Assembly: GCA_028823955.1 (NCBI GenBank)
Contig: JAPPFE010000035.1
Location: forward strand, 1 to 64,000
DNA: 64,000 nucleotides
Direction of reading: 5' to 3'
Source: Candidatus Dadabacteria bacterium
GTDB lineage: Bacteria > Desulfobacterota_D > UBA1144 > Nemesobacterales > Nemesobacteraceae
Within the stretch, counting starts at the first letter, position 1. Each line of letters begins with the position of its first letter. The position numbers and the translations under genes were made by a program. The notes below the pieces were generated by a model, which was given only the letters and a program-made list of their open reading frames with translations, searched no databases and was not told the DNA's origin. Shown one piece after another: positions 78 through 3,845 of this stretch.

Positions 78-974
78 TTAAAGCCCTGCCCGTTTCATAA
101 GGTCCTTGGCCATAAGAGATCCTTCGGCGGAAGCTTTTTCCGAATCGCACTTCCAAGTGTTCCTGGAGACTGCCTTTTCCTCCATATCTATAAAAACAGA
201 ATGTGCCGATATTTTTCCAAGATGCACTCGCGCGCAGCATCCAAGCGGAATTTGGCAGTCTCCACCAAAAGTTTCCAGGAAGGAGCGTTCAAACACTGCT
301 ACGGTTTCTGTGTCCGGGTGCGTGATTGAGGATATGAGGTTTCTGGTTTCGGTATCATCTTCTCTGCATTCTATGGCGATTATTCCCTGACATGGGGCCG
401 GAACCATGTCATCCTGCGCAAGGTGTTGGGTAATGCGTTCGGAAAGCCCGAGCCGGTTGAGCCCCGCTGCGGCCAGAACGATTCCGTCAAGGTCTTCTGA
501 GAAAATTTTCTTTAGCCTAGTATCAACATTTCCCCTTATGGAAACAATTTCCAGATTAGGAAACCTGAAAAGTAGCTGAGCCCTTCTTCTTATGCTTCCG
601 GTCCCAACCCTGCCCTTCCCTTCGAGCTGTTCAAGGGTACGTCCGTCTGCTGAGACGAAAACATCTCTCGAGTCTTCTCTTTTAAGCACAGAACCTATGA
701 CGAGCCCGTCTGGGAGAACTGAAGGCATGTCCTTCATGCTGTGAACGGCGATATCTATTTCGTCTGAGAGAAGGCTCTGCTCTATTTCTTTTACGAAGAT
801 CCCCTTGCCACCCATCCGGGAAATATCCTCTTCGGAGTTTATATCTCCCGAGGTCTTTATTTCAGTTATTTCCGTTTCAAGTGAAGGGAAAGCAGCGCGA
901 AGTTCTGTTTCGACAAGGCGGGCCTGGCACAGGGCGAGCCTGCTACCCCTGGTCCCAATTCTCAGCTTCGTCAT
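78..974 (-). CDS. hemC: Porphobilinogen deaminase (hydroxymethylbilane synthase)
   Basis: Protein MTKLRIGTRGSRLALCQA...; HSMKDMP and GNVDTRLKK motifs. The ORF track starts at 1019, but the conserved start MTKLRIGTRGSR maps to 974. Confidence 0.95.
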   Translation of the reverse strand: MTKLRIGTRGSRLALCQARLVETELRAAFPSLETEITEIKTSGDINSEEDISRMGGKGIFVKEIEQSLLSDEIDIAVHSMKDMPSVLPDGLVIGSVLKREDSRDVFVSADGRTLEQLEGKGRVGTGSIRRRAQLLFRFPNLEIVSIRGNVDTRLKKIFSEDLDGIVLAAAGLNRLGLSERITQHLAQDDMVPAPCQGIIAIECREDDTETRNLISSITHPDTETVAVFERSFLETFGGDCQIPLGCCARVHLGKISAHSVFIDMEEKAVSRNTWKCDSEKASAEGSLMAKDLMKRAGL

Positions 975-2271
975 AAATATCTGTTGTGTCCTGTGAGGTC
1001 TCCACCGGGTCGAGCTCAAAAAGTCTTCTCGTTACCTCGGAGTAAAGAGCCGCTTCGTAGCCGGAAGTTCTCCTCTTCAGATTGGTGACCGGGTCGTGAA
1101 ATATCTTTCCGATTATTGAATTTGCCAGGCTCTCTATGATTTCTTTCTGTGCTCCGGTACCGCCCTCGAGTTTTCGAAGCGCTTTCTCGACCTCGGTCTT
1201 TTTTATTTTCTCGAATTTTTGCTTGATATCGATTATGATGGGAAAAACCTTAAGACTTTCCATCCAGTCCATAAAACCTCTTTCTACGTCCGCAACTATT
1301 TCTTCGGCTTTCTTTAGATTTTCTTTTCTGGAATTTAAGTTTTCGCCTCGAACAACTCTCAGGTCGTCTATGTCGTAGAGGTAAACCCCGGGAATTCTGT
1401 TTATCTTCGGATCTATATCGCGCGGGACGGCTATATCGATCATGAAGATCGGATCATTTTTCCTGAGCTTGAGAGACTGTTTTATGTGTTCACTTCTTAT
1501 TATGTAATCAGAAGACCCGGTCGCGGTAACAAGAATATCGATGTCTTTCAGACGGTAAAGCATCTCTTCGAACCTTACAGGTTTGCTCTTAAAGGATTGT
1601 GAAAATTTTTCCGCGTTATGGAAATTCTTACTCGTTACATAGAGTTCCCTTATGTTGTTTGAGATAAGGTGTTTTGCGAAGAGTTCTCCCATTTCACCGG
1701 TTCCCACCAGCATGGCGGTGCGGTTTGCAAGGTTCTCGAATATTCTTTTTGCAAGTTCCACTCCGAGGTAACTTATCGAGACCGCTTGAGAAGATATCCC
1801 CGTTTCGGCCCTAACTTTTTTCCCGGTGAAAAGAGCTCTGTTAAAAAGCCTGTTAAGTATGAGTCCGACCGTATTCTCGGAACGCGCTACGCTGTATGAA
1901 TTTTTGAGTTGGTTCAGGATCTGAGTTTCTCCGATTACCATGGAGTCAATGCTGGCCGCCACCCTGAAAAAATGTCTAACCGCATCAGATCCCAAGCGGG
2001 TATTCATATAGGGATAAAGGCTCTTGTCCCCAAGCTTATGAAAATCCAGAAGAAAGGACCTTATCTCCTCCTCGCATTTTCCACGGTTCTCGGTCACCGC
2101 ATATATCTCAACGCGGTTACAGGTGGACACTATGAAGCATTCAAGCACGTTTTCTCTTAAACGAAGGATTCCGAGTGCTTCCCTAATATCCTCATCAGAA
2201 AAAGAGAACTTCTCCCGCACTTCCACGGGGGTTGTCTTGTAGCTTATTCCGACTGAAACTATCTCTACCAT
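943..2271 (-). CDS. hemA: Glutamyl-tRNA reductase
   Basis: MVEIVSVGISYKTTPVEVREKF..., STCNRVEIYA, GETQILNQLK motifs; 3' end overlaps hemC start by about 32 bp. Confidence 0.96.
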   Translation of the reverse strand: MVEIVSVGISYKTTPVEVREKFSFSDEDIREALGILRLRENVLECFIVSTCNRVEIYAVTENRGKCEEEIRSFLLDFHKLGDKSLYPYMNTRLGSDAVRHFFRVAASIDSMVIGETQILNQLKNSYSVARSENTVGLILNRLFNRALFTGKKVRAETGISSQAVSISYLGVELAKRIFENLANRTAMLVGTGEMGELFAKHLISNNIRELYVTSKNFHNAEKFSQSFKSKPVRFEEMLYRLKDIDILVTATGSSDYIIRSEHIKQSLKLRKNDPIFMIDIAVPRDIDPKINRIPGVYLYDIDDLRVVRGENLNSRKENLKKAEEIVADVERGFMDWMESLKVFPIIIDIKQKFEKIKKTEVEKALRKLEGGTGAQKEIIESLANSIIGKIFHDPVTNLKRRTSGYEAALYSEVTRRLFELDPVETSQDTTDIYDEAENWDQG

Positions 2272-2300: not shown

Positions 2301-3005
2301 TTATAAATTACCCGTGGATGGAACTATATCAATTTCGTCTATATTCGCTTCGAGGGGCTGGTTTATGACCGACAGGACTGTTTTCGCTGTAATTTCAGGA
2401 GACATCATCTTTGCCCTGTCCCATTCTCCGGGAAGAGAATCCCAGATGTCCGTCTTGGTCGGACCTGGCAAGACGGCGGAGACCTTTATTCCTCTGTCTC
2501 TTACCTCTTCCCTCAGCGAGTTAGTAAAACCTAGGACAGCGAACTTCGAAGCGCAGTAGGCTGCCCACCCGGGAAAGCCTTTTTTTGAAGCGTTCGAACC
2601 GATATTTACGATATGGCCTCCTCTTGGCATAAACGGAAGTGAATGTTTTACCATGAGAAAGGCCCCTTTTGCGTTTACAGACATCATCTCATCCCACTGT
2701 TCGGCGCTGGTTTTTTCTACTGGACCAGTGTGGACTACGCCCGCATTATTGATCAGTACGTCAATTCTCCCCTTTTTTTCAGCAACGCTTGAGATAAATT
2801 CCCTGACTTCCTCTTCGACCGATATATCAACGGAGGAAATCATGAAATTCCCGGCAAAAGACGATATTTCAGTCTCAAGAGAAGCCATGGTCTGGATATT
2901 CCTTGAGCAAAGTACCGTAAAAAACCCCGCCTCGAGTAATTCAATTGCGGTTGCTTTTCCTATGCCTCTTGCCGCGCCGGTTACAATCACAACTTTCTCA
3001 GCCAT
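2301..3005 (-). CDS. SDR family NAD(P)-dependent oxidoreductase (possible pterin-side-chain/sepiapterin-type reductase by context only)
   Basis: TGAARGIGKA nucleotide-binding motif, NNAG, YCASK active site; ATG overlaps the stop of the upstream PTPS paralog. Confidence 0.85.
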   Translation of the reverse strand: MAEKVVIVTGAARGIGKATAIELLEAGFFTVLCSRNIQTMASLETEISSFAGNFMISSVDISVEEEVREFISSVAEKKGRIDVLINNAGVVHTGPVEKTSAEQWDEMMSVNAKGAFLMVKHSLPFMPRGGHIVNIGSNASKKGFPGWAAYCASKFAVLGFTNSLREEVRDRGIKVSAVLPGPTKTDIWDSLPGEWDRAKMMSPEITAKTVLSVINQPLEANIDEIDIVPSTGNL

Positions 3006-3429
3006 CTTGTTTTTCCTCGAAATACTCAAAATAACTTTTCGGGTTCTCCCAGACCCTTATACTATCAAGCCTGCCCGGGACGATTTCTGTGAATTTCTGC
3101 CACAGGTATTTCCCTATATTTTCAACAGTCGATATGTTTTCCTGAAAAAAATCAATATCCCTGTCTATCCACTTGTAGTTAAGTTCTTCGATTACGGGTG
3201 CCGCCTGTTTTTCAAAGTCTATACGGTTTATGAGCATGCCCGTTTCATCGTCTATTTCTCCCCCTATTGCCACTTCCACCGTGTAGTCGTGTCCGTGTCC
3301 CGCGGGATTTGCACATTTGTCAAATATGGCAAAGTTTTCTTCGTCAGACAATCCTTCCATAAAAAGCCTGTGGCTTGCGGAAAACCTGAATATTCTCGTA
3401 AGAAGTACCTGCTCTTTTCTTTCTAGCAT
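2998..3429 (-). CDS. 6-pyruvoyl-tetrahydropterin synthase / QueD family paralog A (keeps Cys, lacks Asp-His)
   Basis: FSASHR...DKCANPAGHGHDY...GEIDDETGMLIN...ELNYKWIDRD...IRVWEN; zinc His residues and motif Cys present, DHKNL replaced by NYKWI. Confidence 0.9.
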   Translation of the reverse strand: MLERKEQVLLTRIFRFSASHRLFMEGLSDEENFAIFDKCANPAGHGHDYTVEVAIGGEIDDETGMLINRIDFEKQAAPVIEELNYKWIDRDIDFFQENISTVENIGKYLWQKFTEIVPGRLDSIRVWENPKSYFEYFEEKQDG

Positions 3430-3845
3430 TTGCGGTAGTCGACGAAAAGATCGTCCGTTTCATACACCCTTACCTTGTAAAGACGACAGTCATCCCTCTC
3501 GATGATTTTTTCCTCAATCACTTCCCACAGGACCCTTGCTATGTTCTCCGTCGTCGGTATAAGATCCTGAAAACGGGGGTTGTCCTCGTTTAGGTTCTTG
3601 TGGTCGAAATCAGCCAGAACCGATGAAATAATCTGCTTCAGATCAAAGAGATTGATTATCATGCCCGTCTCCGGGTTTATTTCTCCTTCCACTGTGACTT
3701 CGAGCACGAAATTGTGCCCGTGTCCGCCGGGCAGGCTCGATTTACCGTAGATTTCGCGGTTTTTCTCCTCACTCCAGTTTTTGTTCCAGTATCTGTGAGA
3801 AGCGGAAAACTCGACTTTCTTCGTTATGAGCTTTTTAAAAGACAT
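3423..3845 (-). CDS. 6-pyruvoyl-tetrahydropterin synthase / QueD family paralog B (keeps Asp-His, Cys replaced by Ser)
   Basis: EFSASHR...GKSSLPGGHGHNF...GEINPETGMIIN...DFDHKNL...VRVYETD; zinc His residues present, motif Cys is Ser (TCG). Confidence 0.9.
   Translation of the reverse strand: MSFKKLITKKVEFSASHRYWNKNWSEEKNREIYGKSSLPGGHGHNFVLEVTVEGEINPETGMIINLFDLKQIISSVLADFDHKNLNEDNPRFQDLIPTTENIARVLWEVIEEKIIERDDCRLYKVRVYETDDLFVDYRKC

Follow-up and report, generated by a model that had tools for sequence, protein, structure and literature searches.

The locus raises the question of how two adjacent genes with the PTPS fold can be maintained when neither product carries a complete catalytic triad. 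It lies in a 64,000-nucleotide stretch (the window) from Candidatus Dadabacteria, a marine bacterium. The relevant features are listed below.

78..1019, minus strand: HemC, conserved neighbour and phylogenetic marker (start codon approximate)
943..2271, minus strand: HemA, glutamyl-tRNA reductase, conserved neighbour and phylogenetic marker
2301..3005, minus strand: short-chain dehydrogenase/reductase (SDR), its own start overlapping the end of A
2998..3429, minus strand: paralog A, second gene of the pair, PTPS fold, 143 aa (Pfam match, residues, AlphaFold monomer)
3423..3429, minus strand: 7-bp overlap ATGCTAG, shared by the end of B (stop) and the beginning of A (start)
3423..3845, minus strand: paralog B, first gene of the pair, PTPS fold, 140 aa (Pfam match, residues, AlphaFold monomer)

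Both products could be placed in the PTPS superfamily. Their scores against Pfam PTPS (PF01242/COG0720), 94 bits for A and 122 bits for B, exceed the curated cut-off of 22.4 bits, each has three zinc-binding histidines, and the fold of A is best matched by human PTPS. The AlphaFold monomer of A (mean pLDDT 78.3) gave human PTPS 3i2b as its best PDB match (TM 0.79, E 9.7e-14), and that of B (mean pLDDT 80.7) resembled it in confidence and secondary structure. The closest solved structures to both were human and rat PTPS.

Alignment to human PTPS showed that paralog A has Cys39 within a CxxxxxHGH motif (CANPAGHGH), zinc ligands His20, His45 and His47, and the Glu (WEN), with Asn-Tyr (ELNYKWID) at the position of human Asp88-His89. 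Paralog B has the Asp-His pair (Asp81-His82, in DHKNL), zinc ligands His17, His42 and His44, and the C-terminal Glu (YET), with Ser36 at the position of the motif Cys. This confirmed the reciprocal loss reported by the first-pass annotation, in which A lacks Asp-His, B lacks Cys, and both keep the zinc histidines and Glu; its coordinates, motifs and 7-bp overlap were also borne out when the sequence was re-read. That annotation had allowed that either chain might be catalytically complete through shifted residues. At the level of sequence this was excluded for both, as the three histidines of A are all zinc ligands and the only cysteines of B, residues 120 and 140, lie outside the motif. A and B jointly carry the full Cys/Asp/His triad and neither does so alone. 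B copies throughout the class, including those that have the catalytic Cys, conserve Cys120, some nine residues ahead of the C-terminal Glu.

The missing residues do not stem from a frameshift, from misassembly or from pseudogene decay, because the pair is adjacent throughout the class and selection on both genes is strongly purifying (within the genus, the median dN/dS is 0.07 in A and 0.05 in B). Asn-Tyr in A and Ser in B were found in every genome of the window's genus for which the residues were read. Wherever a genome of the class has both genes, B and A are adjacent in that order, and their junctions are mostly overlapping or abutting. With A as query among named genomes, eight of nine loci were from Candidatus Dadabacteria; the ninth (L113), proteobacterial, was an ordinary QueD and was set aside. 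In most Dadabacteria families the pair is followed by folE, the SDR gene, hemA and hemC. The SDR gene is conserved in families f1, f3, f6, f8 and part of f2, and was not found at the locus beside the pair in f7 and f4. Family f8 has further features of its own here. The product of folE in L067 (5786-6640) is extended at the N-terminus by about 100 residues, which by eye resemble a phosphoribosyltransferase, Pfam matching the cyclohydrolase part only, and a fused AsnC/NirDL-type siroheme decarboxylase-like protein (L067 7373-8410) lies between the SDR gene and hemA, where other f8 genomes have an ORF of similar size.

The architecture of the family offers a way for two incomplete chains to work together. 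Nar et al. (1994) reportedly assigned Cys42, Glu133 and the zinc ligands of a site to one subunit and His89 to another. The title of Burgisser 1995, as cited in PMC7546909 and PMC2229834, describes the PTPS catalytic triad as intersubunit, and the enzyme is a dimer of trimers in which three monomers border each site (PMC7546909). A and B probably form a dedicated heteromer of the PTPS family, in which, following the family's plan, Cys, zinc and Glu of one subunit would meet Asp-His of its neighbour. If the rat hexamer plan holds, the mixed oligomer would be A3B3. Its sites would be of two classes, one pairing Cys(A) with Asp-His(B) and the other Cys(B) with Asp-His(A), and both would have worked ancestrally. 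Loss of Cys from B would have killed the second class in the window's lineage, and Asp-His of A, serving that dead class only, would be expected to decay stepwise, whereas selection would go on preserving Cys(A) and Asp-His(B).

The 49 pairs compared within Dadabacteria form a graded series of this kind. Both partners are intact in families f2, f3, f6 and f8. Genera g14 and g17 of f7 have Ser in B with A intact; genera g13, g15 and g16 of f7, together with f4 and genus g2 of f1, have Ser, Ala or Asn in B and Asp-Tyr (once Glu-Tyr) in A. The window's genus, with Ser in B, has Asn-Tyr in A. By count, 19 of 49 pairs keep both the B Cys and the A Asp-His (two further rows being incomplete), seven have lost only the former and 21 have lost both, and none of the 49 has lost the A Asp-His while keeping the B Cys. 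Asp-His of B is kept in all 49, and the Cys of A is never lost in readable rows. The f7 intermediates in g14 and g17 place the loss of Cys(B) before that of Asp-His in A, and the order in the series is B Cys, then A His, then A Asp.

Loss of Cys from B is followed by relaxation of Asp-His in A and not in B, as expected if Cys(B) and Asp-His(A) belong to one class of site. The partner residues, as read from these pairs, evidently co-evolve in trans, not in cis. This bears on the possibility that A and B form separate homo-oligomers that took on new, differing functions and dropped the residues they no longer needed. Such a history is compatible with the zinc ligands, Glu and purifying selection found in each chain, and single-residue changes are known to have altered the reaction of PTPS paralogs (PMC5041015, PMC2229834). 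It would, however, predict the opposite pattern, with relaxation within the same chain, whereas the residues lost after Cys(B) sit in A. Recurrent fusion, conserved gene order and overlap also favour a joint function, and we regard separate homo-oligomers as very improbable.

How often the residues were lost depends on the tree. With HemA and HemC (78-974) as markers, f7 was placed beside f2 and f3, which keep Cys in B, and apart from f1 and f4, and a single clade of f1, f4 and f7 was rejected (AU p = 0.005). On this placement Cys(B) was therefore lost at least two times, and Asp-His of A would have been lost at least three times within Dadabacteria, where loss counts in related genomes are non-independent, the event numbers come from trees of short proteins and two markers, and some branches of the marker tree are long. 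The A-protein tree contradicts the marker tree by joining f1 and f4 with f7 (97/88); this would fit one loss of Cys(B) and counts against repeated loss. All first-position domains grouped together (97/87), and a second clade took in 28 of the 31 second-position domains (95/84). The pair is therefore old and its order has been retained.

To place the pair more widely, 387 genomes across bacteria were surveyed and 62 multi-copy genomes were then re-examined. Many B-A pairs were found, the majority fused to one chain. In a second phylum, centred on G096, 74 of 85 genomes gave a match and the pair is a fused protein of about 280 aa. All 27 representatives have a first domain with Asp-His and no Cys and a second domain with Cys. 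The second-domain Asp-His is intact in some families and DY, DF, GF or HY in others, with at least four state changes. The reciprocal loss that the first-pass annotation proposed to look for in other genomes was thus found in Dadabacteria and in this second phylum, in the same direction. An adjacent pair in G106, the one genome of its phylum and so a single instance, follows the same pattern, with Asn or a gap for the first-partner Cys and loss of Asp from the second partner. Three QueD-type fusions (L140, L141 and L142, from G196, G214 and G333), which by their motif appear to be of separate origin, also keep Asp-His and lack the motif Cys in the first domain; in G333 (L142) the second domain has Cys and Asp-Arg for Asp-His, the His being lost. 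Read by eye, the first domains of these three also lack the C-terminal, pterin-binding Glu. The plasmid collection gave distant matches only, mostly single-copy and in rhizobia.

Across the 113 pairs compared (49 in the class and 64 outside), the second-partner Asp-His was lost solely where the first partner lacks Cys and keeps Asp-His, a pattern found in 38 strongly redundant pairs. Elsewhere, nine of the pairs sampled, representing about five lineages, have a first partner without Asp-His and a complete second partner. In these the Asp-His at work must be that of the second partner itself, and the pair is not universally composite. Pairs can, it seems, also settle on a complete second partner and a degenerate first. 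This outcome does not fit the window, since A there lacks Asp-His. The first-pass suggestion that two subunits rebuild one composite site is favoured by the comparisons for the lineages in which partner A decays after Cys(B) is lost, a course that recurs in the second phylum, and does not extend to every pair, some second partners being complete.

The same pairs bear on whether B is a non-catalytic scaffold or regulator and A an enzyme that works without Asp-His or with Tyr instead. Cys is kept in A in every readable pair, as this would require, and first partners can become pseudoenzymes: in G061, G155, G209, G293 and G379 the first partner has neither Cys nor Asp-His and the second is complete. 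First partners, however, shed Asp-His freely where the second retains its own, whereas the Asp-His of B is invariant, in 49 of 49 Dadabacteria and 27 of 27 of the second phylum. The A position drifts (Tyr, Phe, Asn-Tyr, Gly-Phe, His-Tyr), resembling decay and not a new catalyst. A scaffolding role for B is accordingly unlikely.

Two observations weigh against a mixed oligomer with one surviving class of site. B retains all three zinc histidines and Glu at the site expected to be dead, which simple death does not explain, and the short linker in the fusions would be hard to reconcile with a three-membered ring. The first could be accounted for by one hetero-oligomer with divided labour, in which the sites joining Cys(A) to Asp-His(B) produce an intermediate and the Cys-less zinc/Glu sites of B carry out a later step, for example side-chain cleavage; all zinc ligands and Glu in B of the Cys-losing lineages would then have a use. 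Such a site, however, has no recognised base in B, the residues that A would contribute in trans are degenerate and variable, and zinc histidines may persist for folding, so that divided labour seems very improbable. Natural fusions and overlapping or abutting genes indicate that the partners are co-produced. We consider it likely, from the residues and their order of loss, that the pair is an ancient heteromeric PTPS with one surviving class of site, predicted to catalyse a queuosine-precursor step. What is observed are the residue states with their order and distribution, the gene linkage, the purifying selection and the pathway genes, and from these the complex, its stoichiometry and its product are proposed.

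The pathway was judged from gene content. In the window's genome QueC adjoins QueE, the pair is the only PTPS, and there is no other QueD. In family f5 neither PTPS nor QueC is present, and folE is kept between nuoM and hemA. In f5 L121 (G026) and L125 (G025) the pair is cleanly absent between nuoM and folE, and folE, hemA and hemC remain. A biopterin pathway with an aromatic hydroxylase is less likely, as no pterin-dependent aromatic hydroxylase (PF00351) was found in 58 genomes of the class; the neighbouring SDR gene would fit biopterin synthesis, and other BH4 users are possible. The presence of QueC and QueE, the sole PTPS, the joint loss of PTPS and QueC in f5, the lack of a hydroxylase and the absence of the SDR gene from the f7 and f4 clusters together suggest that the pair most likely serves the 6-carboxytetrahydropterin (QueD) step of queuosine synthesis, rather than biopterin synthesis. 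The surviving site would convert dihydroneopterin triphosphate to 6-carboxytetrahydropterin for QueE and QueC. Its substrate would come from GTP cyclohydrolase IB (FolE2): the window's genus has no full folE, and lack of substrate was set aside because FolE2/GCYH-IB, present in 14 of 14 genomes, can supply dihydroneopterin triphosphate. In this genus (g1) folE is replaced by FolE2 (GCYH-IB; G000:C43:13464-14240), and genus g2 of f1 and family f4 have FolE2 alongside FolE, an intermediate state. The motif spacing, which is of the biopterin type and not that of QueD, counts against a queuosine role, and the pair may have a second use in a reduced-pterin pathway. Family f8 (L063-L065, L080-L091) has a third PTPS-II copy, standalone and complete, and may divide roles among its copies. 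In G045 and G052 no PTPS other than this copy was found.

If this account is true, a textbook homohexameric enzyme gains a heteromeric branch, and genomes preserve each step by which two intact copies became a one-sided composite site, with an order and direction of loss open to experimental replay. Annotating single PTPS/QueD genes by their residues would miscall both halves inactive, and Dadabacteria would have a candidate for the QueD step that is missing from their queuosine synthesis. On balance, we favour the broader proposal that the PTPS/6-carboxytetrahydropterin synthases include an ancient heteromeric or fused class, spread over several phyla, with trans catalysis between unequal subunits and repeated one-sided decay of one class of site. 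Current annotation does not recognise such a class, each gene being called an ordinary PTPS or QueD. The open-licence literature yielded no heteromeric or two-domain PTPS, which is weak evidence of novelty, and no described function for a fused two-domain PTPS. The earlier remark that no such pair was known to have been described holds for the literature searched, but the pair is no local oddity: B-A pairs, separate or fused, are old, occur in several phyla, and are in some cases intact.

Among known systems, animal PTPS (rat 1b66/1gtq, human 3i2b) shares with the pair its fold, three zinc histidines and Glu, with A the CxxxxxHGH spacing and with B the Asp-His loop. It differs in being the product of one gene, a homohexamer with six identical sites, whereas here there are two genes and part of the triad is missing from each chain. 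CxxxxxHGH is the PTPS-II, or biopterin-type, motif (PMC5041015). It is present in A and in intact relatives of B and is broken by Ser in B itself, and the full PTPS-II triad in a single product is found neither in A, for want of Asp-His, nor in B, for want of Cys. QueD (PTPS-I; E. coli 4ntk, 3qn0) resembles the pair in its probable pathway role, but is one polypeptide with CxxxHGH, a spacing different from that of A and B, and the two genes score 44 and 69 bits against the NCBIfam QueD model TIGR03367, both below its cut-off of 89.25. PTPS-III, from Plasmodium and bacteria, is like B in that the active-site Cys is replaced; there Glu takes its place and the product is altered (PMC2229834). The pair differs in having Ser, Ala or Asn at this position, in one partner of two and never Glu, and the PTPS-III motif ExxHGH is absent from the sequences of A and B. 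The fused proteins of the G096 phylum share with the window's pair the order of first and second partner, the first losing Cys and the second losing His, and differ in that a single chain of about 280 aa stands in place of two genes.
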